A stretch of 48,915 bases of DNA from Chromera velia (lineage: Eukaryota > Sar > Chromeraceae), in NCBI GenBank assembly GCA_018398765.1, contig JAHBMJ010000105.1, forward strand, positions 7,501-56,415, written 5' to 3'. This document shows, one piece after another, positions 1,334-36,839 of this stretch. The first letter of the stretch is position 1; every line of letters starts with the position of its first letter. Made by a program: the position numbers and the translations under genes. The notes under the pieces were generated by a model. The model did no database searches, was not told where the DNA came from, and saw only the letters and a program-made list of their open reading frames with translations.

Positions 1334-2467
1334 TCACTTCTCTCCCACAATCAACTCCTCATCTGATGCTGCGTTTCCAGAATGGTCTGCAGCCTGAGGA
1401 GACGCATTTAGTAACGCTCTAGAGGCATCATGGGGGGATGATTCAGAACCGTTTCGCCTTCTGTGTGCCACCACGAGATCTGCAGTCAGACGCGCCCACG
1501 CGTCCATGCCCGGTTTCTCAGGCCAGACAACCTCCCTGAATACCTCCATCTTCTCTGCCGCCCTGCCGCTTGTCTCACCTATACATGCGGCGGCCTGCGA
1601 GGACAATAACTCTCTCCCCCCCTCCCGCAACGACAGCTTCTCCACCCAATTCCTCACTGAGCTAGGACTCCCGAAAGTCGCTATCTGGGTTCTTGCAGCG
1701 CTTTGCGTCTTCTCTTCATCCCACTGCGCTGTCACAGTGGCGTAGGTCTCCAGTCTCGTCACTTCGAAGCCGCGTTCCTTCAGCAATCGCTCCAAGGTGC
1801 CCAGAGAGAGGTTGGAGGTAGGGTACAATACCCTGCCGGGGCAGGAAGAAGAGGACAAGGAGGAGGAGGAGGAGGAAGATGAAGAAGACGTGGAAGAAGA
1901 AGAAGACACGGAAGGAAGTTCAGCTGCAAGAGTCTCTGCAGTTGCCTTCGAAGGTACAAATACAGGCTCAACCCCCGCTTTGGCCAAAATTTCAGCTGTA
2001 GATTTTCCAACAGCCGTGACAGGAATCGGGCATTTGGTCAGACTGGCCGACCGTAAGCACTCCAAGAACACGTTCGCACCTTCTGGAGAGGTCACCGCTG
2101 CGTATTCGAATCGAGGCTTCTCCCCAGCCCCGACCCGTCTCCCCTCTTCTGCGAGTGTGTCGACCAACCGCTCACGGTCTGGTCCTGCCTGGGCAGCGAT
2201 ACACGGCACCTCCACGAATTCAAAGTCTTCAGGGGCAATAATGTCACTAAGCGCCTTCTTGAGCTTCCCGTTCTTTGACTCTTCTCGTGTCCCTGCCACC
2301 ACTACACACGTTCCCGTCTCTCCCCTTGGAGGCGCTGCCTCTCCCGGTGAAGGCTGACTGCTTTCCGTCATCAAGGCACACGCTCTTCGAGCGGCGCGCT
2401 TGCCAAGAAGGCTGTGTCCAGAACTGGACGGGCAGAGGAAAGCCAACCAGGGGATCACCGACACCAT
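1334..2467 (-). CDS. hemD: Uroporphyrinogen-III synthase (UROS, HemD)
   Basis: The enzyme closes hydroxymethylbilane with inversion of ring D to give uroporphyrinogen III, in heme and chlorophyll synthesis. The protein has the two-lobed UROS pattern: a first lobe starting [11 protein letters not shown], ending around the [14 protein letters not shown] segment, then a second lobe with RVLYPTSN and the family-typical [12 protein letters not shown] followed by [11 protein letters not shown] long Ser-rich run sits between the lobes, so the protein is longer than bacterial HemD. The frame is open to 2662, but I prefer the ATG at 2465-2467: it starts a hydrophobic stretch ([17 protein letters not shown]) followed by a Lys/Arg-rich segment, as expected for ER signal plus plastid transit peptide. 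The gene is intronless, ends in TGA, and is head-to-head with BUD13. Family call is strong; plastid location is inference. Confidence 0.88.
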
Positions 2468-3050
2468 CACACCCGCACTTTGCAAGTAGAGACTGTGAGT
2501 CAGTAAGTCTGTCTCCGGAGAGGCGTCTCCTCCTGTAGGCGTGCAAAAATGCACTTCTTCGACCCTGTCTGCACGAAGTTCCTTGCTCGGGGTAGAAGGA
2601 CGACAGTTCAGCAAAAAAGTGAAACAGCTGAAGTTCATAGAGGTATTCTGACGCGGTGACAAGTCTCAAAGTTGGCGGCTCAAATCGTCTCTTTCGCGGG
2701 TCCGTCTCTTACAGAGCTCGGAATAGCTCGATCTTGTGCATGCGATCTCGGAACGGCTGATTTGTGTGTTGCTCATGCATTGTTGCTTCAAGGTTCTCCT
2801 GTTCTCTCTGGTTGGGGTTCTCAAGAATCAGACCAAATTGATGCTCATCAAAAATCTCCAGGTGTTTCCATTTGACTGAGAGTCTTGGCTTCTGAGCGGC
2901 CGTACACAACTCCCTGTGTTTGAGCGATCGGAGGAAAAGTGATTTTTCCGCACAGAGGCCGGGCAGGTCGCAGCACTGCATACTGTCTCGGCCAGCTGTT
3001 GTAGTAGATAGCTTTGCCAACCTTTTCAGACTGTGCCGAGCAGAGAAAAG
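2468..3050. promoter_or_regulatory. Shared divergent promoter region (UROS / BUD13)
   Basis: About 580 bp lies between the chosen start of the synthase on the minus strand and the BUD13 start on the plus strand, and must hold both 5' ends. I see no clear TATA box or known element. If the synthase uses the upstream in-frame ATG at 2660-2662, the shared region shrinks to about 390 bp. Confidence 0.4.
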
Positions 3051-4413
3051 ATGGCTTCAAAGGCAGAGCTGCTTGCGAGGTACACGAAGGGTTCTTCTGG
3101 TCAAGCCCCCCAAAAGAAGAAGAAAAGAGATTCCTCAGGGCCTGCGGGCGGCTTCACCATTCGGGATGACGAGGATGTCTTGATGAATCAGGAAAGACTG
3201 AGCGTTTTGGAGAACGATGACTCGATGGACCAGGAGGTTATGCGCAGACACTACGAGGCAGTAGGAGGGGGTGAGGAGGATGGAGACGGAGAGGACGAAC
3301 CGATGATTGCTGACGGCACAGACGCTCAGCTTATTGCTGAGTATCGAGTGCAGAAGGCCACCAGAAAGTGGGAGTATCCGGAGGAGAACGAAGGTCTCCC
3401 TGCAAGTTCCCATCCATCCAAAGAGGTGAGCGAATTCCCCCCAGCAGATTGCAGATAGCGCTCTGATTGTTTTTTTAATATTTGCAAGTGGTGAACAACC
3501 TCTTTCCCCCCTTCCTTCGTTTCTGCAGAACCGCGATCGTCAAGAGCTCCACAAAGGATTACCAAAGAGTAGCGCTCCAAACCCGACAATAAAAAAGGAG
3601 CCGGTTGGCTTCGCTGTGAGGAAGATCGACAGGAGAAAGCAGGAAGATCAGTCACCGCCCAGAAGAGGGAGAAGAGACGATGACAGAGATCAGTCACCGC
3701 CCAGAAGAGGGAGAAGAGACGGTGACGGAGATCAGTCACCGCCCAGAAGAGGGGGGAGAGACAGGGACGGAGATCAGTCACCGCCCAGAAGAGGGAGAAG
3801 AGACGATGACAGAGATCAGTCCCCGCCCAGAAGAGGGGGGAGAGACGGTGACAGAGATCAGTCACCGCCCAGAAGAGGGAGAAGAGACGATGACAGAGAT
3901 CAGTCACCGCCCAGAAGAGGGAGAAGAGACGGTGACGGAGATCAGTCACCGCCCAGAAGAGGGAGAAGAGACGGTGACGGAGATCAGTCACCGCCCAGAA
4001 GAGGGAGAAGGGACGGTGACGGAGATCAGTCCCCGTCCAGAAGAGGGGGAAGAGACGATGACGGAGACCAGTCCCCGCCCAGAAGAGGGGGGAGAGACAG
4101 GGACGGAGATCAGTCACCGCCCAGAAGAGGGAGAGGAGACGGTGACGGAGATCAGTCACCGCCCAGAAGAGGAGGGAGAGACAGGGACGGAGATCAGTCA
4201 CCCCCGAGGAAAATGAAAAAGGAGGAAGGCACAATGGGTTCACCCGCAAGACACAACCGGGGCGACAGGGACGAAGACATTCCGCTTCCCCGTGTGAAGG
4301 TCTCTGTGTGTGTGTGTGTGTGTGTGTGCGTCTGTGTCTGTCTTTCTTTCTTTTTGTCTGTTGTGTTCATGAAGAAAAGGAGGGAGAAGAAGAACAAACA
4401 TGTAGTCTGTCTG

Positions 4414-4466
<53 letters not shown>

Positions 4467-4470
4467 GTGT

Positions 4471-4510
<40 letters not shown>

Positions 4511-6583
4511 AATCAAGAGTTTCTACGAATGGAAACAAAGTCTTTTCCGGGTGATGGCAATTCTTCCTCACGACTGAAGCTTGGACATCTTGATCTCAGT
4601 CAGAGTCATCGAACAAGTCTGACTCAGTCTGACTCAGTATCATGTACGTGTCTGAGTGAGTGAGCCTTCCTGAGCGAGACTGGGACTATTCAACCTCTCT
4701 GCAAATGCGGCACCTTGCATGGATATGGAAGAAAATTGAGCAGCGAAAGATGGCGGGAAGAAAGGCAATCGTCATACGGACTGCAATTTTCTCTTTCTTC
4801 CTGCTCACTCTCTTTTGCATGCTTCGTTTGTTCTCTTTTGCGTGCCTTCGCAGGAGGAGGAGAAAGCAGAAGTCAAAAAAGACAGAGAGGCGGGGAAGAA
4901 GAAGATGTCCTCAGGTCACTCTGCTGGGTTGGTGGATGCCGCCACCCTGAGGCGAGAACAAGAGGAGTTGAAGCGAAAGAGAGAGGAAGACTTGGAGGGC
5001 ATGGACCCCGACAAACTAGGTCGGTCAGTCGGTGAGATCACTGTCTGTGGTTTCAGTTGTTCACCGGTCACTGAGACGTCAGATTGTGGAAGAGTGCAGA
5101 GCAACACAGAGGAGTCAGTTGTGGTGTTTTCTTTTGACAGCCAGATCGTGGCTGCATTGACGTCCTTTTCCGTTCCTGGTGTTCATTTTCATTCGTTTAT
5201 TCATTCGACTCCCTTTTTTCGTTTGCCCTTCTCCCTCTCGCCCTTTCGACGCTTTCGTGGAGACAAGAGATCGCGACATGTTGCAGTCTGCATTTACAGA
5301 ACTTTGCTTCATCGGGGAATACACTTAATCCATCCATCCATCCATCCATCCATGACCTTGCCCCGTCGCCACTAGAGACACCAGAAAGTGTCTCCTCACT
5401 TCTGAACTGGTCTGTCTGTGCATGGTGAATGACGTCCTTCACTTTCCATCCTCTGTTTAATCGAACGAACAGTCACTCGCTGTCTGTGTGCAGGTCGGAA
5501 CGCAGATGTCATCTACAGAGACAAGCAGGGAAGGAAAATCACGCAGGAAGAGTGGCAGAAGCAGAACGAAAAAAAACGAAAGCGGGAGAAGTCGCCACCG
5601 CAAGTAAGTCTTTTTTTTCGTTTATTCGATTGGGAGAAGAAAAGGCAATGTAGCGATTCGAGAGGCTTGCCATGAGGAGTTGTCCGAAAGATCCTGCAGA
5701 CTGCACTAGAGAAAACAGTTTCAGCACTCCCTTTTCTCTCTGCAGAGGTGCGCGTGAGTGTAGTCTTCTTTCCGTCCCCTTTCGTGCTGGTCCCATACGT
5801 TGCTGGACTTTTTCTCCAACACTCAATCAACAATGCAACATTCGTTTTCCTTCCTTGTTGCTGGTGCAACACCCATTTTTTTTTTCGGATGACCCGATGG
5901 AAAATGCCTCATTGCAAGTCTGGATCCATTCGTATTCATGTTCAGGTCTGTCCGCGTGTACATCTTCGCCTCTGCAGTTTGTACTTCGAAGGTACGACAA
6001 GCAGAATTTGCCGTCAAACAAATGTTCATTTTGTTTTTGCCTCTCCTCCCCCCTTCCTTCCTTTCTCCGTTCGTTGTGCAGAAACTAGAGTGGGGCCGTG
6101 GGCTGGTTCAAAACAAGAAGGACGAGGACAAGGCGGCAGAGGAGGCACGCATCGCGGCGCAACCCCTCGCGAGGTCTGTTCACACAAAGCACGCCTGCAT
6201 AGATCGTGGGGATTAGAAGGTCGAATAAAGAGATCGAACTACTCTGGTGGGAGTGAAATGTCGCTTTTACCATGAGGCAACTGTGAAGAGACCAGACATA
6301 TCGATTCGCAGAAGAGAAGAGAAAGAGAAAGACGAAGAGGAGGAGGATGAGACGAAGGTCGAGCGAACCGTCGAGAAGAGGGAAGTGCACGGACACAGAT
6401 ACAGATACAGATACAGACAGGCAGACTGGGCAACAGGGAAGCAAGGAGGCGAGAGCGATAGACGAGCAGGGAAAGGGGAACGAGAGGAACCCAACAAACA
6501 CACACACACATACACTCACACACACAGACACGCACACATACAGACACAGACACACACTCACATACAGACACACACGCACACGC

Positions 6584-6620
<37 letters not shown>

Positions 6621-7201
6621 AATCGAGAGCCAGAGAGAGGAACAGAATTTGTTCGCCTGTGTCTCTGCCTGGTATGATGAGTGTCCCGCTGAAGCCTATC
6701 CTCCTTTCCCTCCTTTCCCTTTTGCAGGTATGACATTGATGATGCTCTCGACATGGACCTGAAGCAACGCGGGCGTTGGGGGGACCCTCTGGCTAACCTC
6801 GGGGGAGGGGGGGAAGAGGGGGACGAGGATTTGGATCCCTCTCAAACTGGAGGTCGGTTGCTTCGTCGGGTTTTGGTACTGAAATATTATCATTATTTTC
6901 TATTGAGTCGATTGGGCAGGAAATTGGAAGAGTGGAGGAAGCTGTGTGCGATGGAAGGGTGCTGTCGTGTGTGCATGCTTTTTGTCTGTGTACGTACAGA
7001 TCCATGGTTGTTGAAATGAACGACCTAGAGAGGTCAGTCAATGTCTACATGCAAAGAGGGACGGATCGAACGTCGGATAGATGAGAAGGTGATGTAGATG
7101 GATGGCTCGACTTTCGCTTCGTCTCTCCATTTGCATATTGAATGTGCATGTATGGCGCACGAGCATTTTTTTGTGCCGCGGGGCGGATTCGTTCGGGCAA
7201 T

Positions 7202-7987: not shown

Positions 7988-10334
<2,347 letters not shown>

Positions 10335-10917
10335 GGCCTGGCACTTATATTGGGTTACAGGTTTCAATACCCCCTATACATAAGGGTATGCCCCCCTGTA
10401 ATGTTATCCTTACTTCAAAAGTGGTCCCAATTGATCAATCTCATCAGGGTACGTCTAAAAATATTGAAAACATCTTCTGTTGATTGAGGTTACATGAGAA
10501 ACTGACGAAAAACGATGTGTCCCTTTCACTTTGTAGCCAAACCCCTTATAACCTTGTAACCTGTAACCTAAAATGACCCTCTTCAAAAGTGATATAACCT
10601 TCGTCTACATGCATTTTAAAGTGTTTTTGAAGTGATTTGAAGAGTTTTTGAAAGTTGACTTTTTGGTCGGTTACGGACCTCAAGACCGCTTGTAACCTTG
10701 TAACCTGTAACCTTACAAGGGGACATATATAATAAGAGGTGTAACATCATGTAATCACATAAGCTATACAGTAAAAGTGATTGATTTTGAAATAACTCAA
10801 CATGCCGGACCTCCAGCTTGTGTGAAAAGCTCGTCCAAATGTTTTTTAGTTCATTTTTTATGTCATTTTTGCACTTGTAACCCTATATAAGCCTAAGAGT
10901 GCCCCCCCCCTAGGCCG
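10335..10917. other. Non-coding spacer with GTAACC-type repeats
   Basis: No gene. The 19-base word ACCTTGTAACCTGTAACCT occurs at 10551-10569 and again at 10695-10713, and a related GTTACAGGTT lies near 10354. Could be remnant ends of a mobile element; boundaries not resolved. Confidence 0.4.
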
Positions 10918-12394
10918 ATGTGCTCGATGGATGCAGGTGGAGAGCAGACAGGAAGGAAGAGGAAAAGAAGGACCAAAAGGGATAGAAGATGAAAGAGGCA
11001 GCAGCAGCCCTAGCCAAGAGCGAAAGGCTAGCCGGTAGACAGCGGGGGAGGAAGGAAGAGGAAGAAGACGAGTCCTACATGGAAGACAGTGACACAAAGA
11101 GCATGCCGGGGGCGGTAGTCTCTGACGCAGACGACTCAGATAGAGAGGAAGAGGAGGAGGAGAGATGAGGAGAGGAAAAACAGGAGGAGGCACGATACGG
11201 TGACAGCACGAGGCCCTACAGCCCCCGCAGCCTCCCCTTACACATGTAAAGAGGCAACCCAAAATGAATGCTGCGACCTAGGCTGCGACTGCCATAGAAA
11301 AGGAAATAAACGAGCGAGGTGTGTCAGTTGTAGATGTGTGCAAGTTGAACTCGGGGGTTGCAATAGAGGGGGTAACTCAGTGACCCCGTAGAGATGCGCA
11401 TGTACCCAGCGGATAAACGACAGTATGTATGTGCACAGGATGAGCAGAGTATTGAAGGAGGGCACAGAAAAGGATCAGGGGGGGAAGGCCCAGAGGATGG
11501 GGGTAACAGACAGGAGAGAAACAAAGAAAGGCCCCCCCAGAGTCAGGGCCCAGCTGCCTCCGGGCAGTCGAGGAGAGACAGGACTGCAGGCAACCCACCT
11601 ACCCAAAGCCAGGGCAGAGGAGAGAGATGAGCAGACAAGCGAGACGTGTGCCTCGTTCGAGCGACGGCCTCGCGAGGGGGGGTCTCTATGTTGGAGAGGT
11701 GATACACGTTATACACCGACAGATAACACTCTAGCTGCTTGGCACAATGGAAAGGGAGGGGGGGCAAGCAAAAAAGGCGTGCAAAGGCGTGGAGGCCGAA
11801 GGACGCATCCAGAGACCAGCAAGCGAAGGACTTCTATCGATCCCTCGTCTTTGTGGGAGCACAGCCGGAAGGTCACACAGCGGCGCTAGAAACGTTCTCC
11901 AGGGAGAAACTTCCGAGAAAGGGGTGGTGTGCGTGAACCTCCCCGAGGCAGCAAGAGAGGCAGACATGAGGGGGGAGGAAGAAACGCTGTAGGCAGGAGT
12001 GGTAAGGGCCGCACAAAGATAGTGGGAGGGAGAGGGAACAGACATAACACTGCAGGAGGCCGCAGGGCAGGGGAGAGAAAGGGAAGGGGGTCAAAGGAGC
12101 CGAGAGGCCTCAAGAAAAGGAAAATAGGGGGGATCAGGGCTACAGACAGGAGGGAGGAAGACAAGTCAACGGGACATAGCTAGGGCTGTAGGGGAGGGCG
12201 AGAGCCTGAGAGAAAGTCCCAGGGTCACCAGGGGGGAGGGAAGGGGCAGAATTAAAGAGATGAACGGTTAACCTAGCCAAGCCGCACCCTAGGCCGTACC
12301 GCAGAAGCAGGAGCAGATACGTCAGAGGGAGGCAGAGGGGCGCAAACAGTCACAGCAAAGGGAGGATAGACAAGACAGGGGGGGGGGGGGGGGG

Positions 12395-12395
12395 N
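12395..12395. other. Ambiguous base in a poly-G run
   Basis: A single N in a run of G from 12378 to about 12401, probably a sequencing problem in a homopolymer. The local reading frame is not reliable here. Confidence 0.9.
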
Positions 12396-12455
12396 GGGGG
12401 GGAGAGGCAACGGGAGGCCAAGGAAAGGGGGAGAGGGGAGACAAATGACGCCGTT

Positions 12456-15400
12456 ATGACAGCAGAGGAGAGTCAACGCCTCATAGAGGAGGCATACGGG
12501 AGGAGGCGACAGACAGGGGGGGAGGGGAGGAATTTTAAAGAAGAATGGAGGGGGTGGAGGCAACAGTGGGAAGAAGCCATGAAGTATACCCAGACAGGGC
12601 ATTATGTGATGCTCCGAAGGGGACTGAGGAGAGAGATAACAAAAAAGCTGGCAGAATAGGGGTCTAAAATTGCTATCACAACACTCTATGAAGGAGCGTT
12701 GTCGGCTTTGCATCTATATAGCGCCTCGGGGGGGGGGTGTTGGCCTCCGGCCAACGGCTATATACAACGCTCCTGTAGAGGCGTAGCAGGTTGTAGGTGG
12801 GCGTTGGGAGAGCGCTTTCCACGGCAATGGACAAACGTTTAAAAGCTGTTTCATTCAGACATATATGCTGATAAGGACGTTCTTCTATCTTCTTTCACAA
12901 CAGATAAGAATGAATGAACCATATTTGATTTTTTAATTGATTTAACAACTAGATTTTGATATATTAAAGGGTGTAGGCTAATACATATTCGTGAGTTTAG
13001 CTCAATTTTTTGTTAATGAAGGATAATGAAGGGGTGTAGCCTGTCTAAGACCTTATACAACACAACACCCTAGGGGCGTTGTGCCTTGGGCAAAACGCCT
13101 TTATATACAACGCTCTTAAGGCGTAGCCTCTCGGCACGTCTCTGTATACTATGCCACCCCTCCCTCCCCGTATCTAGACCCCTATCTGGCGGAGTTAATT
13201 GTGGAAGTTTGGAGAGGGGAGTGGCCCAGCGAGGCCCCAATACTATTCCTTAACCTCCTGATGCGACGGGACCCCAGGCTAAAGGGAAACACGGCAGTGA
13301 GGCAAAAGTTGGAGGAAAAAATGAGGAAATAGGACAAAGGAGAAGGAGGGAGGAAACAGCTGATGAAAGAAGCAAAACTGTTGAGTAACAGGGTGAGGGA
13401 AACAAAGAGGAGAGGGCGCAAACGCGAGCAAGGAGAAGATGAAGAAGAGAGAAGGAAGATCAGACATTTTCAAGATCTGATGTAAAAAAGAGAGATTCGG
13501 CGTGCTCTGCGAGGGCTGACGGAGAGGGAGAAAGGAGGGGTGCTCGATGCAGGGGACACGTTCTAGATTGGGAATGGGCCCATATAGACAGCTACAGCCA
13601 CACTAGAGATGAAGCACCCAGACAGCTATAGCCCCCACACGGATAGACTCATCTTCCCCCCCGAAGGGGAAGCCCTCCCTCTGTTTGAACACATAGTGAT
13701 CACTCCCGACGGAATCGAGGAAATGGCTAGAAGACTGCAGGACAGCGCAGGCCCCTCCGGGTTTGATAGCGCTAATCTACAGTCTGCTCTTCTTCGGTAC
13801 GGCCCCTGGCCGCCAGTGACCAGCTGAGAGAGGAGGTGGCAAGGCTGATAGAGGATATGGCAAACGGAATATGGGGGTAGGAGAGAGTGCGAGCCCTCAT
13901 GGCATGTTGGCTGGTTGCCCTCGATAAGTGCCCAGGCGCCAGACCAGTAGGCATCGGAGAGTCCATGAGGCGACTGATGGCTAAAACCATCATGCATGAG
14001 ACTAAAGAGGAGCTTGCAGCTGCGTGTGGGGCAAAACAGCTAGCAGAGGGTCAGCAGGGCGCCATCGAGGCGGCAATCCATGCAGTGGGGGGGGTATGGG
14101 AGGAAATGGACAGGGCTGCAGGCTAGGCTGCAGGGGATGACCCATGCTTAGCGTTCGGCCCTAGTGTTCGGCCTACTAGAAGTAGACGCCTCCAACGGCT
14201 TTAAGGAGGCAGGGAGGATCGCAGGACTCTGGAATATCAGAGTCAAGTGGCCGCGAGCGGCACAGTTCATCTTCAATTATTACAGGGGAGATGCCAAAAT
14301 GTTCTTACGGGGGGGAAACAGGACGACAGTTCTCCAGAGTAAGGAAAGATGGACACAGGGAGACCCTCTAGCGATGGGGGGCTATGCGATCACTTAGCTG
14401 CCCCTTGTGTGGGCACTGTGAGATACCACTACACACGTCAGGGCGGGGAGAAGCGGAAGGGACGAACAGGGAGAAAGAGCAAGCAGTGAGAATGGGGAGT
14501 GAGGAGAGGGGGGACAGGAGGGGGATGAGCGCGGCGGGGAGGACGACCGGGAGGCGCCCAACTGAGAACTGTAGAGAGAAACAGACCCGTGGATCCCCCC
14601 TCCCAGACCTCTAGATGCCTCAGCCGAACCAGCAGCCCCCTCACAAAAAGTATGACGGCAGGTATGGTACGCAGACGATGTGTCCTGCCTCGGCAGGCTA
14701 GTGATGATCAGGGAATAGTACCGCATAGTGCTGCAGAGGGGTCCAACTACAGGCTACTTCCCTAAGCCTGATAAAACAATTCTCGCAGTCCCAGCACGGT
14801 TTGTGGAAGAAACCAAGAGGGTGTTTGCCGAGTTTTTACCCAAGGAAAAGAGGGGAAAAGGAATGACCATAGTGATAGGGTGTAGACTCCGAGGAGGATT
14901 TGTGGGAGATGAAGCGGAGAAAGAGAAATGGGTGGGAAAGAAGGTGGAAAAGTTTATGAAAAGAACGGAGAAAGTGGTTGAAACAGCTGTGCATGCGCTC
15001 TAGGAAGCGTACACGGTGTACGTTAAGTCATAACAGCAGGAGTGGGGGTTCTTGCAGAGGGTTACACAGGCAAGAGAGGAACAGTTTGATCCCCTCGAGG
15101 CAGCCATTCGAGATAGACTGCTCCCAGCCTTGCTATCCGGGAGGCCCCGCAACAGCCCCCCGCACCGCCGCAAAGCAATAGATGCGAGAGGTCAGTGCAC
15201 TGCCAGCGACTGCCAGTTAGACTGGGGGGGATGGGGATTGACAATCCCAAGATAGAAGGGGAGGAAGCGAGAGCGACGTCTCAAGCAGCAACTAAAGAGC
15301 TTACACAGGCCATTCGAGAAGGAAGAGAGGTAGAGGAGGAAAAAGAAAGAGAGGAAAGGAAGGAGGCTCACAAAGAGCACAGCCAGAGGAAGAGGGCGAA

Positions 15401-16250
15401 GGAGAAAGAGAGATAGGAAAGGGTGAAAGAAATGGAAGTTCTGGGGGTAACGGGAGAGCAGAAGAGAGCAGTCAGAGATGCAAAGGCAAAGCGACACTTG
15501 GGATGGCTCAGTATGGTCCCACAAGAAGCGGACGAAATGCTCATCAGCCTGGAAGAGTTTTGAGATGCCCTCACCCTGCGCTACCAATTTAAGGCGCAAG
15601 CAGATAAAAGGAATTGCGAGGGGTGTGGGGGCAGTTGAGGGCTGCAGCATGCCCTCAATTGCAAGAGAAGGGGACATGTCGGGAGGAGATACAACGAGGT
15701 AAACCAGGTGTGGTATGATCTGGCAGAGCTGGCGTTCGCGTCGGCAGTAGGAAGGGGGGAGCCAGTAGTGAGGGCAGAGGGAGAGGTACCGGATCGACCG
15801 GCCCTCTATGGGGACTTCTCAGTGCGGGGACTCTGGGCAAGGCAGAGGTAGGCAATCCTAGATACAAGGGTGGTTAACACCTAGGCTAGCACCCAGGCTG
15901 CCTCCTATGTACAGGGTGACTGGCAGAAAGTTCTTACCTAGTCAGCCACGGGGAAAAAGGAGCAGTATGCCGAGCCGTGCAGGGAAAAGGGATACGATTT
16001 CATGCCCCTCATCAGCAGTATAGATGGGGCCCTCAAAAAGGATGCCGAGATGTTCCTAAAGAAGGTAGCGCATCTTGTGAGTCTGAAGTGGGATAGGACA
16101 CACGAGCAGGTGTGCGCATATACATAAAGGCAAGAATGCAGGCAGTGCACCACAGAGCAGCCAGCGGGTGCCTGCGGAGCACCAGGAAAGAGGTGCGAAG
16201 AGTGAGCGTTGAGGGAGGGGCAGCGGCAGCGGTAGCACTCGGATAGAAGG
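12456..16250 (+). mobile_element. Decayed non-LTR-type retroelement: reverse transcriptase plus zinc knuckle and endonuclease-like domain
   Basis: Segments in order: a charged N-terminal part (12456-12655 continuing at 13186); the ITPDGIEEMARRLQ region near 13700; LDKCPGARPVGIGE near 13922; DASNGF near 14186; TQGDPLAM near 14353; the catalytic WYADD with YADD at 14668-14679; GYFPKPDKT near 14754; then an LGGMGIDNPK segment near 15227; a CEGCGG...HALNCKRRGH zinc knuckle near 15615-15675; and a GLWARQ...ILDTRVVN segment near 15830 that resembles a PD-(D/E)XK nuclease core. This order fits RT proteins with a C-terminal restriction-like endonuclease. The frame is broken by about a dozen TAG, three TAA and two TGA codons plus frameshifts near 13800, 14130 and 15200, and by a nested element at 12656-13185. 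Sequence from 10918 upstream is similarly purine-rich and may be its 5' part. Ends and target duplication not found. Confidence 0.75.
12656..13185. mobile_element. hAT-like non-autonomous element nested in the retroelement ORF
   Basis: Terminal inverted repeats ATAGGGGTCTA (12656-12666) and TAGACCCCTAT (13175-13185) are flanked by near-identical 8-bp direct repeats CTGGCAGA (12648-12655) and CTGGCGGA (13186-13193). An 8-bp target duplication is typical of hAT elements. The retroelement frame left of the insertion runs into a TAG formed by the element's own terminus; to the right, the frame resumes in phase at the second copy of the duplication. Inside, a TATATACAACGCTC..GGCGTAGC motif appears at about 12760 and 13103. 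There is no transposase, so it is a MITE-type element. Confidence 0.75.
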
Positions 16251-16259
16251 AGTGGCGAT

Positions 16260-16617
16260 CAGCTGCTCTTAACGGAAAAGGCAAGGCCATGGGAAGACAT
16301 GGAGAGCTTATAGGTGGTTGAGGTCGAGGGTTTAGAAGGTTTTGATGTAGGTTTTGATCATAACAGCCCGAAGGGGAAAAAACTTGACTAGATTGAAAGT
16401 CTAACTCTTATAAGTATAATATCGGATTTTATATACCGGTCTAGATACCGGTTCTTACATTCATACGTTTATGTATTCTATACATTTTTAGCTATATGTA
16501 TTTTCTCACTAGTTTTCTTATTATATCTTTAGAAAGATACTTATTAAAGCTAATACAACATAATACGAGTAGAGTTAATATGCTACCTGCTAGCAGCTGC
16601 TTAAACTCACTGCATGC
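16260..16617. other. AT-rich spacer
   Basis: No gene seen. It ends in CTGCATGC (16610-16617), the left copy of the target duplication of the next element. Confidence 0.5.
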
Positions 16618-17455
16618 CTAGGGGTAATTTTTTTTTAAAAAAAAAAAAGGTCTCAGGAACAATTTTTTTTTTTTTTTGCTTTTCGATCATGATGACCTCA
16701 ACCAAGACGTAACAACCATATGCAACACCTTGCAACTTAGCTTACAACACTAAAGCAACACTTGTATAACAGTGCAACACCATTCATTTATTATCATAAT
16801 AAAGAAACAATAGTATAATAACCTAAATAACAACACCTAAACAGCACTTGTTGATTCGTGCTGTTAAGGTCTAGTAGAAGAGGTTGGCGCTGGTAAGTGC
16901 TTGCAGAGGTTCAAGGGTCTTCAGGGCTTGATGTCGCTGGAGTAGTTCAGGTCGATCCCTAGTGACAGACTCGATCAGTGTCAGGAGCATGAAGCTTTTT
17001 TGTGATTCGGTGATCGATCTGATTTCATTGTAGTCTTCCAGAAAGTCTTTCGGAAGTCTTTCATATGATTTCGATCGAAGTGTGATATGCCAACATCTGT
17101 ATATGATAAACGTCCTACATCTCCTTTCTTTGATACTTAAAAGGGATATAGTGAGGATTAAACCCATGACCTTCTGCTTGTTAGTGCTGTATGCAGCATG
17201 CTAACCACTAAGTCATGAAAGCAAGCGGCGTATATGATCTTCTTTTGCTTAGTGCTCAGGCTACTTTAAACTAAAACTAATTCATTTAATTTCTATCTTC
17301 TTTCTAGCTATGCCGAGCTATGCTTAAATAGCACATAGCAGTGCAACACATGAACAACACTTAAACAACATATTTTTCAGCTTGACACCAGAAAAAAAAA
17401 AAGAAAAAGATGAAAATGACCAACTTTTTTTTTTTTTTTTGAAAATTACCCCTAG
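16618..17455. mobile_element. hAT-like non-autonomous element, 838 bp
   Basis: Terminal inverted repeats CTAGGGGTAATTTT (16618-16631) and AAAATTACCCCTAG (17442-17455) are perfect over 14 bp and flanked by an exact 8-bp direct repeat CTGCATGC (16610-16617 and 17456-17463). Long T/A tracts lie just inside both ends. The termini share TAGGGGT with the element at 12656-13185, so the two may use the same transposase. No transposase is encoded; a 98-codon minus-strand frame at 16871-17167 has no recognised motif and overlaps the tRNA-like part. Confidence 0.8.
17151..17221 (-). ncRNA. tRNA-like (SINE-like) sequence with A and B boxes inside the hAT-like element
   Basis: Read on the minus strand, TGACTTAGTGG (17205-17215) fits a Pol III A box and GGGTTTAATCC (17155-17165) fits a B box, at tRNA-like spacing of about 40 bases, with the AACAAGCAGAAGG stretch typical of tRNA anticodon and variable arms between them. 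I cannot fold a proper acceptor stem or a 7-base anticodon loop, so this is a tRNA-derived relic or SINE head and not a functional tRNA. Confidence 0.4.
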
Positions 17456-29261: not shown

Positions 29262-30923
29262 ATGCTGCGCCCTTTTCACTTCCTTCCCGCTGTCCTGGTC
29301 AGCGTGCTTTGCACTGCCAAGCCTGCGGTTGACCATGTTGTCGTTTTGGTGATGGAGAACCGTCCTTTCGATCATTTTTTCGGCTTTTCACAGTCCGAGC
29401 TCCCAGGCATAGACGGCCTCAATGGTGATGAATTCTGCTACTATGACGTTAAAGACCCTGACCAGGGTCGTGAATTTGTGGGAAAGGGAAAAGCACGGTA
29501 TGTGTGCAACTTGGGCCCCTCCCAAGACTTCTCTGTGTGGTGTGGAGATTTTTTCGGTCCCAATGTTACGGATTGTTCGCACGGTCCCTACCCCCCTCAA
29601 GACAAGAGCGGTTTCCTGCAAATGAATTTGAAAAATCCAGAGGTCATGTGGTCCTTCTCCCCCGACCAACTCCCCATCAAAACCGCCCTCGCGAAGGAGT
29701 TTGCCATTTTCGATAAATGGCACTCCTCCTTTCCTGGTCCGTCTACGCCCAACCACCTCTTCCTCCAGATGGGCACTGCAGCTGGGTGCACCAACACCGA
29801 TGAAGCCTACCAATGCCACAAAGGCGTTCCCTACCCCCAGAAAACGATCTACGAGGCCCTGGAGGACCACAGTCTCTCCTGGGCAGTGTACTACAACGAC
29901 AGTGCCTGGAACACCTTCATCGATTGGTTTGAGACCCCCAGGGGCCAGAGGGGCATGCACACTTACGACACCTTCTACCATGCAGCCTCGACGGGTTCCC
30001 TCCCGAACTTCTCCTGGATAGTTCCCCGACAGGGGCGCAACTCCACCTCGGGGGACGGGAGTAACGACGATCACCCCTGTCACGATGTTGCCCTAGGAGA
30101 GCGTTTGTTGAAGGACACGTACGAGGCCTTGAGGAGCGGGCCGGGGTGGAATCGCACTCTGTTCATCGTCACATATGACGATGCAGGGGGGTTCTACGAT
30201 CATGTCGACCTTCCCACTGAAGGTGTGCCCCCCCCCGATGACATCCCCTCCTGTTCCCACAAAACCTCCTTCGACTATCTCGGAGCCCGAGTGCCCACTT
30301 TGATGGCCTCTCCTCTGATCCCCAAAGGCACAATCATCAAAGAACCCACAGGGCCCAGCGGGACAGTGGCCCGCCCAACCGAGACCTCACAATACGAGCA
30401 CACGAGCCTGCTCGCGTCCCTGAAGGAATTGTTCGGCCTTCCTTCATTCCTCACCAAAAGAGACGCATGGGCAGCCACCTTTCTCGACTTCCTCTCTCTC
30501 CCAGAGCCCCGCACAGACACACCCATGCACATGCCTGAGCCCCCTCCGAAGACAGAGGGAGAGGCGGCAATGCATTCTTGTGTGAGTGACCGAGAGGCCC
30601 TCAGCCGTCGGCACCGTCGCCGAGCAGAGCACTACGCCCGGGTGCACGGCGTGTCCTCCCCCGTTTGTTCTGTGCGGGATGAGGGCACGGGTGTGTGCCA
30701 GAGTGATGCAACGGCGAGTGAGGTGGAGAGCTGGATTCTTCAGCATGAGAGCGAGAGGAGACAGCGCATCATTATGAGAGGAGAGGGGGAGGGTCGCACA
30801 GAGAGAGCTGGGCAGAAAGCAGCAGGCCAGTCTGAGAGAAAAATCAATTCCGGAGAGGTTTCCAGTGGGAGAGACGGAGACACAGGAGCTGTAGGCGGAT
30901 TTCTCAGTCCGTCTGTTGCCTGA
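29262..30923 (+). CDS. Secreted phosphoesterase-family protein (non-specific phospholipase C / acid phosphatase-like)
   Basis: Member of the phosphoesterase family PF04185, which in plants and bacteria includes non-specific phospholipases C that cleave phospholipid head groups. Intronless, 553 residues. An N-terminal signal peptide (FHFLPAVLVSVLCTA) is followed by VVVLVMENRPFDHFFG near residue 31 (metal and nucleophile region), PGPSTPNHLFLQMGTAAG near 158, VTYDDAGGFYDHVDLP near 305, ARVPTLMASPLIPKG near 341 and YEHTSLLASLKELFGL near 377, all in the family order. The last 110 or so residues are Arg/Glu/Ser-rich and not part of the domain. The product probably acts outside the cell or in a vacuole. 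The exact substrate cannot be told from sequence. Confidence 0.87.
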   Translation: MLRPFHFLPAVLVSVLCTAKPAVDHVVVLVMENRPFDHFFGFSQSELPGIDGLNGDEFCYYDVKDPDQGREFVGKGKARYVCNLGPSQDFSVWCGDFFGPNVTDCSHGPYPPQDKSGFLQMNLKNPEVMWSFSPDQLPIKTALAKEFAIFDKWHSSFPGPSTPNHLFLQMGTAAGCTNTDEAYQCHKGVPYPQKTIYEALEDHSLSWAVYYNDSAWNTFIDWFETPRGQRGMHTYDTFYHAASTGSLPNFSWIVPRQGRNSTSGDGSNDDHPCHDVALGERLLKDTYEALRSGPGWNRTLFIVTYDDAGGFYDHVDLPTEGVPPPDDIPSCSHKTSFDYLGARVPTLMASPLIPKGTIIKEPTGPSGTVARPTETSQYEHTSLLASLKELFGLPSFLTKRDAWAATFLDFLSLPEPRTDTPMHMPEPPPKTEGEAAMHSCVSDREALSRRHRRRAEHYARVHGVSSPVCSVRDEGTGVCQSDATASEVESWILQHESERRQRIIMRGEGEGRTERAGQKAAGQSERKINSGEVSSGRDGDTGAVGGFLSPSVA

Positions 30924-33941: not shown

Positions 33942-36653
33942 TCACAGACTGACCTCCACGAGAGCGTTCACCATCTTCCATCTCTTCTCAAAGTTCCGGT
34001 CTCTCTTACAAAGTTCGAATAAAACAAATTCAAGAGGATGAAACACTCGCTTCCGAGGATCCGCGCGATCATCTGTGACGGTTTGAGACAGCCTTCCAAG
34101 TTGAATCCATTCCAAGAACTGCTCGGTGCCTTCCCGCCCCTGCCCCTCCCCATTCGGGTCTGCCCGCCCTTCCTCACACACATGACGCACAAACTCAATG
34201 TCCTGCGTTTCACAAGCAAGGAACAAGGGTGATGCTTTCATCACAGGCATGCGATACCCGGAGGCCTCGAAGGCTGCTTGCATTGCCTGAAATGTGGGCG
34301 CACTGGAAAAAGGGCAACGAGCCCCGTGATCAATGAGGAGTCTGGCGAGATCCACGCGCTGCTCGTTGTGCGCTCGCATCACGTCGGGCCCCTCTTCCTC
34401 GGACTGCACCGCGGACTGCGCAGGCTCGGCATATAGCGCCAGCTGCAGAGGGGTGACAGTCCAGAAGTATCCGCTGACTTTTGTGCACCCGATCTGGTTC
34501 GGGTCTGCCCCTCTTTCGAGGAGGAGTCGGAGTATGCGGCTGCGTACAGGGAAAGGGGGGGGCACTACCAGCTGTTCGGTGTCTGGGAGGAGTGTATCAA
34601 GGGAAGGGTGAATGAGTTCGAGAAGGGGAGATCTGGTAAGACGAAACCCAGGCGGTTCGCGGAAGTAATTTTCTCCCTCCTTCCCATTGGGGGAGGCGAA
34701 CTTGTCGAGTAGCACCTTGGCAGTCTTCTCTAAACCGTTGGCGCAGGCGAGGAACAGAGCGCTCAAGTTGTGCCTCATTCTCTCAGAAGACACACTCGTG
34801 ATTTCGAGATCAGCCCCACCCTCTGCTAGAACCTCCACAATCTCTGCTGCTGTCTCGTCCCTTGTCTCAGGGTGTCTCGAGGGAAATTGACTCACAGCAA
34901 GAAGAAGCGGGGCGTCTCGCTTCTCTCGGGCAAGCACCTCCCCCCACCTATTTGGATCAGCTCCTCCGTCTCTGCAGAGGAGACGCACGAGTCTGACATC
35001 ATGAGCTGCACAGGCGATGCCGAGAGGTGATAGCTGACTGAAAGTGGGATCAACCAGACTCGGGCCTTCTTGGAGTGAAAGTGGTCGGTCACTCCGGGCC
35101 CCTGCCATGATCAGACTCTTCGCAATCTCATGCGTTTCATCTGAAGTGAGTGCGTTCAGATCAAAAAGACGCAACAGAACCTGGAGAGGAGTCACCTTAC
35201 GTGACTCCTTTCGGGTGAAACCCGCTCTAAAGGCCGCGCTTCTGGTGACTGCCGCAGCGTTTGGATCTGCCCCCCCTTCCAAAAGCTTCTTCACAACGGA
35301 TGTCAGAACACTCCCAGTCCACCCAGAAGAAGAAGAAATGCCCCCACGCCCCAAAGCCTCAATCAAAGGGAGATGGACATGGGACTGACCCGGTCCTGAC
35401 GGGCGTAGTGTGTGCTTTGCATCCACACCTTTCTCAACCAACACCTCAACACACTGTTGCAGTCCGAGGAAACAAGAAAATGACAGGGGCGTGTGTCCCT
35501 TTGCTCTTTCTCTTTCAACCACTTTCCCTGTTTTATTCAGGTCTACACCTGCACCTCCAAGGGCCGCTAGAACCTCCGAACTCGGACCATCCTCGAGCCG
35601 TGAAATCAACCACCCCCCCCCCAGAGTCAGCATCGCGAGACTCGGCTTATCGCCCCCCTCTCCCCTGCCGACTGACGTCTCTGCCCCGGCGTCGAGGAGA
35701 ATCCTCACGGCTGCGGGCTCACGAGCCATGCACGCAAGTCCGAGTGCCGTCGCTTCCCTCGGCTCTGCTTTACCAAATTCACACGCGCAGGGGGATCCTG
35801 CGGTGCACACACAAACTCTTTTTATTCTCATCCACACACTTCCCTCCCAATTCAAACAGCCAGAATCCTTTGACACATTTGCAAGGCGCTTCAGTAGCAA
35901 CAAAGCGCTTTCTCGACCTGCCTGAGTCATTCGGAGCTCTCTCTTCCCCCTCTCAAGAACGTCGCAACGAGACTTTGTTGTCGCCGCTAGCTGCAACACC
36001 AGCGCTAGCAGAGGAGCGCGCCCGAAATCCAATGCACCCGACCGGGCTGACTCCATGTAACACTCAACCAAATCAACCCTTGCACCCGCATTGAGAAGCA
36101 TCTCTGCACACTCAAATCTGCGTGCGTCGATCAGCGCAGTCAAAAGGGGTTGCATGCTGCACTCACGCACACCTGGGTCATCCAACTCGATCCACGAGTC
36201 GGGACGGACGATGCGTGCCCGTAGCAGGCCCTCCAGCGACTCGTTAGTCAGAACGGAGACGGCATCCTTTGTCAAATCTCTACACACGAACGGAGGGTGC
36301 ACTTCTATCAAAAAATTGACACACTTCTGTGCCCTCTTTTCGAGAGCGCACCTCAGCAGAAGTGGATAGCGCGCAGCCACACCCCTGATGGCCAGCACCT
36401 GTCGTAGGGCCATTACATTATCGAAGGCCAAACATTGCTTTAGCACTTCCCATAAGTGGGCTCTTTCAGAGGCAAGATCAAAGCCAGAGATCAAACTTCC
36501 AAAACCAAGCGACGTGGAATCATCTCTCGCTTTAAGGAGACCCTTTGTGATGGAAGAGAGCTTCCAGAACTGACGCACCCCAACAACGCCGCTCCGAATG
36601 AGCAGCATTGGGATGTCAGTCTGAGAGAGGAGACGGCTGTTTGAGGGCATCAT
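33942..36653 (-). CDS. Large ankyrin-repeat protein
   Basis: Intronless. The frame is open from 36773, but the Met-Met at 36653 begins a better start (MMPSNSRLLSQTDIPMLL); from there about 903 residues to TGA at 33942. Degenerate ankyrin repeats are spread along the chain: TALGLACMAREPAAVRILLD with DAGAE, TPLSFSCFLGLQQCVEVLVE, VVKKLLEGGADPN, SPLGIACAAHDVRLVRLLCR with GGADPN, SALFLACANGLEKTAKVLLD, RILRLLLERGADPN, RVDLARLLIDHGA and SPLFLACETQDIEFVRHVCE with GRADPN. Loops between repeats are long. There is no kinase, channel or other domain and no signal peptide or membrane segment, so it is likely an intracellular scaffold; partners unknown. It lies head-to-head with the gene at 37395. Confidence 0.85.
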   Translation of the reverse strand: MMPSNSRLLSQTDIPMLLIRSGVVGVRQFWKLSSITKGLLKARDDSTSLGFGSLISGFDLASERAHLWEVLKQCLAFDNVMALRQVLAIRGVAARYPLLLRCALEKRAQKCVNFLIEVHPPFVCRDLTKDAVSVLTNESLEGLLRARIVRPDSWIELDDPGVRECSMQPLLTALIDARRFECAEMLLNAGARVDLVECYMESARSGALDFGRAPLLALVLQLAATTKSRCDVLERGKRELRMTQAGRESALLLLKRLANVSKDSGCLNWEGSVWMRIKRVCVCTAGSPCACEFGKAEPREATALGLACMAREPAAVRILLDAGAETSVGRGEGGDKPSLAMLTLGGGWLISRLEDGPSSEVLAALGGAGVDLNKTGKVVERERAKGHTPLSFSCFLGLQQCVEVLVEKGVDAKHTLRPSGPGQSHVHLPLIEALGRGGISSSSGWTGSVLTSVVKKLLEGGADPNAAAVTRSAAFRAGFTRKESRKVTPLQVLLRLFDLNALTSDETHEIAKSLIMAGARSDRPLSLQEGPSLVDPTFSQLSPLGIACAAHDVRLVRLLCRDGGADPNRWGEVLAREKRDAPLLLAVSQFPSRHPETRDETAAEIVEVLAEGGADLEITSVSSERMRHNLSALFLACANGLEKTAKVLLDKFASPNGKEGENYFREPPGFRLTRSPLLELIHPSLDTLLPDTEQLVVPPPFPVRSRILRLLLERGADPNQIGCTKVSGYFWTVTPLQLALYAEPAQSAVQSEEEGPDVMRAHNEQRVDLARLLIDHGARCPFSSAPTFQAMQAAFEASGYRMPVMKASPLFLACETQDIEFVRHVCEEGRADPNGEGQGREGTEQFLEWIQLGRLSQTVTDDRADPRKRVFHPLEFVLFELCKRDRNFEKRWKMVNALVEVSL

Positions 36654-36839
36654 TTTGAAACTTCGGCTAACTGTTCGACGGGGTCCTGAAGAAAGAGGCG
36701 GAAAGGATTCCGAGCCAGCAAAAACAGTTGAAGAGCACAAGATCTGGCATTGACTCCAGACATCTCCAGACACAGTAGGAAGGGTTCAGAAAAGTCGATC
36801 AGATCATCCGTTCAGTTAATGGCACACATGCACATGCGC

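Follow-up and report, generated by a model that had tools for sequence, protein, structure and literature searches.

A non-coding MITE-type element nested in a decayed retroelement copy of Chromera velia

Background

Transposons of the hAT superfamily are characterized by terminal inverted repeats (TIRs) of 10–25 bp and by 8-bp target site duplications (TSDs), as stated in PMC3942097. Examples of hAT-type MITEs are mar in Drosophila (PMC3517528) and the short elements derived from BuT2 (PMC3942097). Duplications of 8 bp are also made by Zisupton (PMC12730594).

The element described here lies in a window of 48,915 nucleotides of Chromera velia (the whole stretch analyzed; GenBank assembly GCA_018398765.1, contig JAHBMJ010000105.1, positions 7,501 to 56,415, forward strand). 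With hAT-type MITEs it shares the short length, the non-coding nature, short TIRs, 8-bp TSDs and the occurrence in tens of copies; it differs from them by an extra A preceding TAGGGG and in that no autonomous relative was found, the likeness being one of general features. The likeness to Zisupton/KDZ elements consists in the 8-bp TSDs (PMC12730594), whereas no transposase link to this superfamily was found for the window element.

A word search of the main text of the Chromera velia genome paper (PMC4501334) yielded neither “MITE” nor “DNA transposon”; among the literature matches listed for MITE and Chromera velia, the sole one containing all terms concerns Amoebophrya. The nested MITE is real and ordinary, the phenomenon as such being standard, and MITE nesting alone changes no general view of transposons. 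At this locus, two families of mobile elements from the same genome can be cleanly ordered by their nesting, and the empty paralog makes it a reference site. In addition, the mutation spectrum of the non-coding copies can serve as a test for RIP-like decay or cytosine methylation in the lineage.

Results and discussion

Element boundaries and reading frames

The following features delimit the element and the frames adjoining it:

12656..13185, no strand assigned: non-coding MITE-type element of 530 bp, delimited by inverted ends, duplication and other copies
12656..12666, plus strand: left TIR ATAGGGGTCTA, 11 of 11 bases complementary to the right end
13175..13185, minus strand: right TIR TAGACCCCTAT, 11 of 11 bases complementary to the left end
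12648..12655, plus strand: left copy of the 8-bp TSD, CTGGCAGA, the same 8-mer being present singly in the empty site of contig C347
13186..13193, plus strand: right copy of the TSD, CTGGCGGA, agreeing with the left copy at 7 of 8 bases
12264..12659, plus strand: left retroelement open frame, ended by a TAG inside the element end
13186..13332, plus strand: continuation of the retroelement frame from the second copy of the duplication onward, as given in the open-frame list

Insertion of a MITE at CTGGCAGA inside a retroelement copy, as proposed in a first-pass annotation of this DNA, is the favoured reading, with a probability of about 0.96. The inverted ends described there were recovered in full, and both 11-bp ends recur unchanged or almost unchanged in other copies of the MITE family. 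The described 8-bp duplication is likewise present, with one base differing between CTGGCAGA and CTGGCGGA. Assuming equal base frequencies and a single stated pair, the chance of matching ends is 4^-11 and that of flanks agreeing at 7 or more of 8 bases about 4e-4. The longest listed stop-to-stop frame wholly within the 530 bp comprises 72 aa.

The left retroelement frame stops, as had been claimed, in the terminal TAG of the element itself (12657-12659, within the left end). The open frame on the right spans 13120-13332, with CTG GCG GAG as its codons at the second duplication copy. Element and one duplication together amount to 538 bp, i.e., 1 modulo 3, which equals the frame shift between the left and right retroelement frames; the annotated rejoining of the frame upon their removal thus holds.

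Such an arrangement is best explained by a transposase acting in trans and making staggered cuts 8 bases apart at CTGGCAGA, into which the non-autonomous MITE inserted; the target was a single copy of a retroelement that is older and probably of the non-LTR type. The 8-bp duplication would then stem from gap repair, and the element interrupts and shifts the retroelement frame. Cut-and-paste transposition in trans is indicated by the short perfect ends, the 8-bp duplication, the many non-coding copies and the empty site; a hAT-superfamily transposase would be its likeliest source.

Copies in the genome

Other copies were sought, a check named in the first-pass annotation, in the assembly from which the window derives (177.8 Mb, 4040 contigs), with positions 12648-13193 as query. 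At least 44 matching stretches were obtained, the window copy included (40 of 74 candidates scored), and the end 13-mer ATAGGGGTCTARA has 69 exact occurrences in the assembly versus 4 for the reversed control pattern. Fifty-nine loci were fetched, i.e., 37 holding the 44 stretches and 22 more from the pattern search with ATAGGGGTCTARA, and scanned for outward-facing end pairs with at most 2 mismatches per end. Pairs were present in 38 of the 59 loci and absent from 21; exclusion of L029, in which an internal chance site had been used, left 37 pairs to be counted.

The flanking 8-mers agree at 7 or 8 positions in 30 of these 37 pairs (8/8 in 14, 7/8 in 16, 6/8 in five, 3/8 and 2/8 in one each) versus none of 1332 cross-pairs of left and right flanks from different loci (mean match 2.19), with a mild bias from the pairing rule, which favoured high duplication scores among candidate ends. 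Since the 8-mers at the element flanks vary from copy to copy, the copies arose by separate insertions. L014 and L015 have common MITE flanks (87–89 % identity, matching orientation), which looks like one repeat duplicated with the MITE inside.

Two copies are interrupted by different LINEs with tails of 4-bp repeats (L028 565-3689, L032 504-3949); these lie in opposite orientation, and their insertion points are only a few bases away from one common AT-rich site at about element position 305. The LINE in L028 has an RVT_1 match, and that in L032 was identified by eye. The 3.66-kb and 4.0-kb versions of the element were rejected as parent transposase gene, their interiors being LINE insertions. 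A site-specific, MITE-targeting LINE was also dismissed: 40 of 337 candidates of the L032 type were listed, the 3' flanks were fetched for 20 of the remaining 39, and none of these flanks matches the MITE at E<0.05 (best 0.058, a 20-base match) or by eye, so the L032-type LINE is not MITE-specific. In L054 (886-9052), MITE ends are located 8.2 kb apart with a 7/8 duplication; the interior contains, by eye, an LTR-retroelement-like stretch on the minus strand.

Empty site and order of events

Both flanks of the insertion are covered at the DNA level by one paralog only (C347). Beyond itself, the left flank (12250-12655) matches C347:14524-14886 (75 %) and, with its first 264 bases only, C917; the right flank (13186-13600) matches itself and only C347:14879-15307 (81 %). 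The left match in C347 (ending at 14886) and the right one (beginning at 14879) share exactly 8 bases; these read CTGGCAGA, just as the left copy of the duplication does. The element is unmatched in the 4-kb C347 locus (L059) at E 1e-3. A 108-aa open frame passes through the empty site, to which the window peptides on either side match at 90 % and 78 %, in one frame (right match 40/48 residues). L059 is decayed as well: its reverse transcriptase (RT) part and an inversion of the stretch matching window 14618-14970.

For the 48 residues to the right of the site, the genome yielded 9 matches, among them self and C347. Three of five fetched relatives (L068, L070 and L071) align with both sides of the site in one frame, with 23–27 % identity over 30 residues on the left (E 0.0002 to 0.003) and 37–44 % on the right. 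Left and right alignments are separated by 12 bases in all three, i.e., four residues, as expected of an uninterrupted site. Deeper within the right peptide, L070 carries a stop and two additional residues. The peptides beside the site could not be usefully matched in L069 and L072. The element is absent from all five relatives (L068-L072), whose contigs are not among the at least 44 element matches.

An empty site and an alignment of relatives over the junction had been named in the first-pass annotation as checks; the former is provided by C347 with its single CTGGCAGA and no element, the latter by the three relatives collinear without it. The annotation had also named what would speak against it, namely the 530 bp as a normal part of related retroelement copies or a lack of other copies with these ends: the 530 bp are absent from C347 and the five relatives, and many copies with these ends exist.

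Alternatively, the 530 bp could represent an ancestral part of the retroelement, lost from C347 by deletion. While the coverage of both flanks by just one close paralog would be compatible with such a loss, the single clean CTGGCAGA in C347 would require a deletion of exactly the element and one copy of the duplication, three relatives at a greater distance are collinear without the element (held by none of the five fetched), and its copies elsewhere lie between other 8-mers. Ancestral presence is therefore considered extremely improbable. The claimed insertion of the MITE into a pre-existing retroelement, backed by C347, L068, L070 and L071, stands, and the order, retroelement first and MITE later, is regarded as established from these comparisons, since the empty site in C347 is accompanied by three of five more distant relatives that are collinear.

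For the window MITE, K is 0.059 relative to the consensus of its subgroup (522 sites; the window copy is part of the consensus) and 0.093 relative to the closest copy in the alignment. Between the retroelement flanks and C347, 94/779 and 127/926 ungapped sites are different. Both divergence figures fit an insertion after the split of the window and C347 retroelement copies.

From the close copy C221, the stretch around the site is absent, and the C917 copy stops before the site, so that neither of the two bears on the insertion. C221 matches window 10149-10330, 10924-11967 and, inverted, 13915-14330. L113 and L074 (C221:38100-41300) contain a rearranged copy of the window retroelement (81–82 % identity) with the RT part inverted. 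About 180 bp separate the end of the retroelement copy in C221 from a lone MITE-like end (C221:39951), beyond which a frame resembling a TYW1-type gene was noted by eye.

Test for splicing of the element

Introners are likewise transposons with a target duplication inside a coding frame, and PMC9860276 reports them from 5 % of the species surveyed. The 530 bp, a short TIR element with target duplication, might thus be spliced as an intron in the retroelement frame. It differs from introners in lacking splice signals that remove exactly element plus duplication: none of the 30 copies with a duplication of 7–8/8 contains a GT/GC..AG intron of exactly this extent on either strand. In the window copy (donors scanned at 12620-12699, acceptors at 13150-13259), each of the four phase-keeping GT..AG choices has its acceptor within the retroelement, past the duplication. 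An introner is accordingly very unlikely; a sloppy cryptic intron in the window copy is possible.

Host retroelement

The retroelement carrying the MITE is represented in the window by:

10163..14970, plus strand: decayed retroelement span with matches in C347, from DNA comparison with C347
13881..14397, plus strand: reverse-transcriptase-like fragments, including an 81-aa fragment with 47 genome matches, self included

Within this span, 10331-10901 has no match in the 4 kb of C347, and the part downstream of 13905 matches twice there. The window copy is broken at several places besides the MITE. Its fragments were not recognized by Pfam, apart from one sub-threshold match to an unrelated family (E 0.032). 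The RT regions of L068, L069 and L070 were unmatched in Pfam (including RVT_1), a relative of the host retroelement gave no Pfam, NCBIfam or phage match, and Rfam yielded no hit at gathering scores for 10000-17000. A 325-aa segment of one relative has weak PDB matches to proteins of R2 retrotransposons (E 0.0018, 0.049 and 0.051), and the longer frame of this relative contains a WYADD motif.

The RT region of this relative (E 0.0018 to 0.051) and its YADD motif resemble those of R2-like non-LTR retrotransposons, from which the host retroelement differs in that Pfam RVT_1 is unmatched. Taken together, the host is probably a decayed retroelement of the non-LTR type. Of the “retroelement ORF” in the first-pass annotation, the retroelement is retained; an intact ORF is not, the copy being a decayed pseudogene with further breaks and an RT unseen by Pfam. 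A poly-G run at 12378-12402, with an N at 12395, marks a weak spot of the assembly within the retroelement.

Superfamily assignment

Ends of hAT elements follow a start consensus of the YARNG type (TAGGG/CAGGG), and the target consensus of the Ac type is nTnnnnAn. The window element fits TAGGG from its second base only, with an extra A preceding TAGGGG. Among 30 duplications, symmetrized, T at position 2 and A at position 7 each have a frequency of 0.37, a weak signal compared to the Ac-type consensus.

Dimerization domains of hAT type occur at 7 places in the genome, none of them between ATAGGGGTCTA ends within the 4.9–9.5 kb fetched for each from this fragmented assembly. No transposase between ATAGGGGTCTA ends was recognized in end-pattern searches, long versions, lone ends and hAT-domain loci, searches which were not exhaustive; inspection by eye of four long versions (L044, L053, L073, L084) and ten lone-end loci revealed nothing recognizable. 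The label “hAT-like” therefore rests on the 8-bp duplication and the resemblance of the ends. As to this label in the first-pass annotation, the MITE kind and the 8-bp duplication are upheld; the hAT superfamily is consistent with the observations, with the first base off consensus and no linked transposase.

The other superfamilies with 8-bp duplications (KDZ/Zisupton, P, Merlin or a MULE variant) are a somewhat unlikely origin. In their favour count the lack of a linked transposase, the leading A, atypical for hAT, and the 8-bp duplications made by Zisupton (PMC12730594), against which stand the seven hAT-domain places and the possible CAGGGTTGC ends with a 7/8 duplication in L060. The KDZ profile PF18758 had 0 matches in the genome, and 0 in the controls too. 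Affiliation of the MITE to the hAT superfamily, as suggested by the 8-bp duplication and ends near TAGGG/CAGGG, is fairly likely.

L060 harbours a candidate hAT element (3350-7037), a 491-aa frame of which contains a PF05699 domain. The CAGGGTTGC ends (11/14 bases) form a 3.69-kb pair flanked by the duplication GAGTCATC/GAGTTATC (7/8). The limits are uncertain, since a second, overlapping pair with other ends (3403-6991) also fits. In L064 (781-1552), a sister MITE-like pair of 772 bp with the ends ATAGGGGTGTA/TACACCCCTAT and the flanks AAGTTCAT/AAGTTAAT is located about 3 kb from a hAT domain match.

Internal structure

Two subterminal regions stand out within the element:

12692..12774, plus strand: subterminal hairpin (AGGAGCGTTGT/ACAACGCTCCT plus inner stem), from DNA folding
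13061..13124, plus strand: right subterminal region sharing the GCGTTG/CAACGC words, from DNA folding and word recurrence

The left DNA fold (12676-12790) has a z of -4.1, with 0 of 200 shuffles equally stable; the right one (13040-13150) is weaker (z -2.9, 2/200). The words GCGTTG/CAACGC recur in both regions, and these hairpin words possibly represent putative transposase binding sites or a cruciform region.

Mutation spectrum of the copies

Twenty-five near-full-length copies were aligned, omitting truncated, interrupted or much longer ones. The spectrum was determined from repeat copies alone, for 19 copies (L009-L035) in three subgroups, without L019, L030, L036, L057, L058 and L086, and with the leave-one-out subgroup consensus as reference. 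C>T and G>A together account for 211/273 changes in subgroup A (9 copies), 133/216 in B (6 copies) and 98/171 in C (4 copies). The C>T rates are as follows:

Subgroup A: CpG 0.146, CpA 0.136, CpT 0.071, CpC 0.049
Subgroup B: CpG 0.150, CpA 0.134, CpT 0.047, CpC 0.044
Subgroup C: CpG 0.173, CpA 0.122, CpT 0.067, CpC 0.048

The CpA rate is thus about that of CpG and roughly two to three times that of CpC or CpT in each of the three subgroups, many CpC sites being located in poorly aligned C runs. A CHG pattern was rejected, because the triplets CAA (0.158) and CAT (0.140) exceed CAG (0.096) and CTG (0.090).

The plain reading of this spectrum would be methylation-linked deamination of the MITE copies, and matches to cytosine-methylase domains are present in the genome (4 on 3 contigs). 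A repeat-directed cytosine decay in a non-fungal eukaryote, RIP-like or driven by CpG/CpA methylation, would be doubtful and clearly unlikely. Five copies of the RT family display rates of 0.098 (CpG), 0.035 (CpA), 0.028 (CpC) and 0.016 (CpT), and this much weaker CpA effect speaks against a general repeat-directed CpA process.

Genomic surroundings

Likely host genes were recognized by Pfam in the window outside the nested elements:

1334-2662, minus strand: HEM4 (uroporphyrinogen-III synthase)
29262-30923, plus strand: phosphoesterase family
33942-36773, minus strand: ankyrin-repeat protein

At 9106-9718 the window contains a tandem array of 39-bp repeats in which CTCTTCCCCC is abundant.
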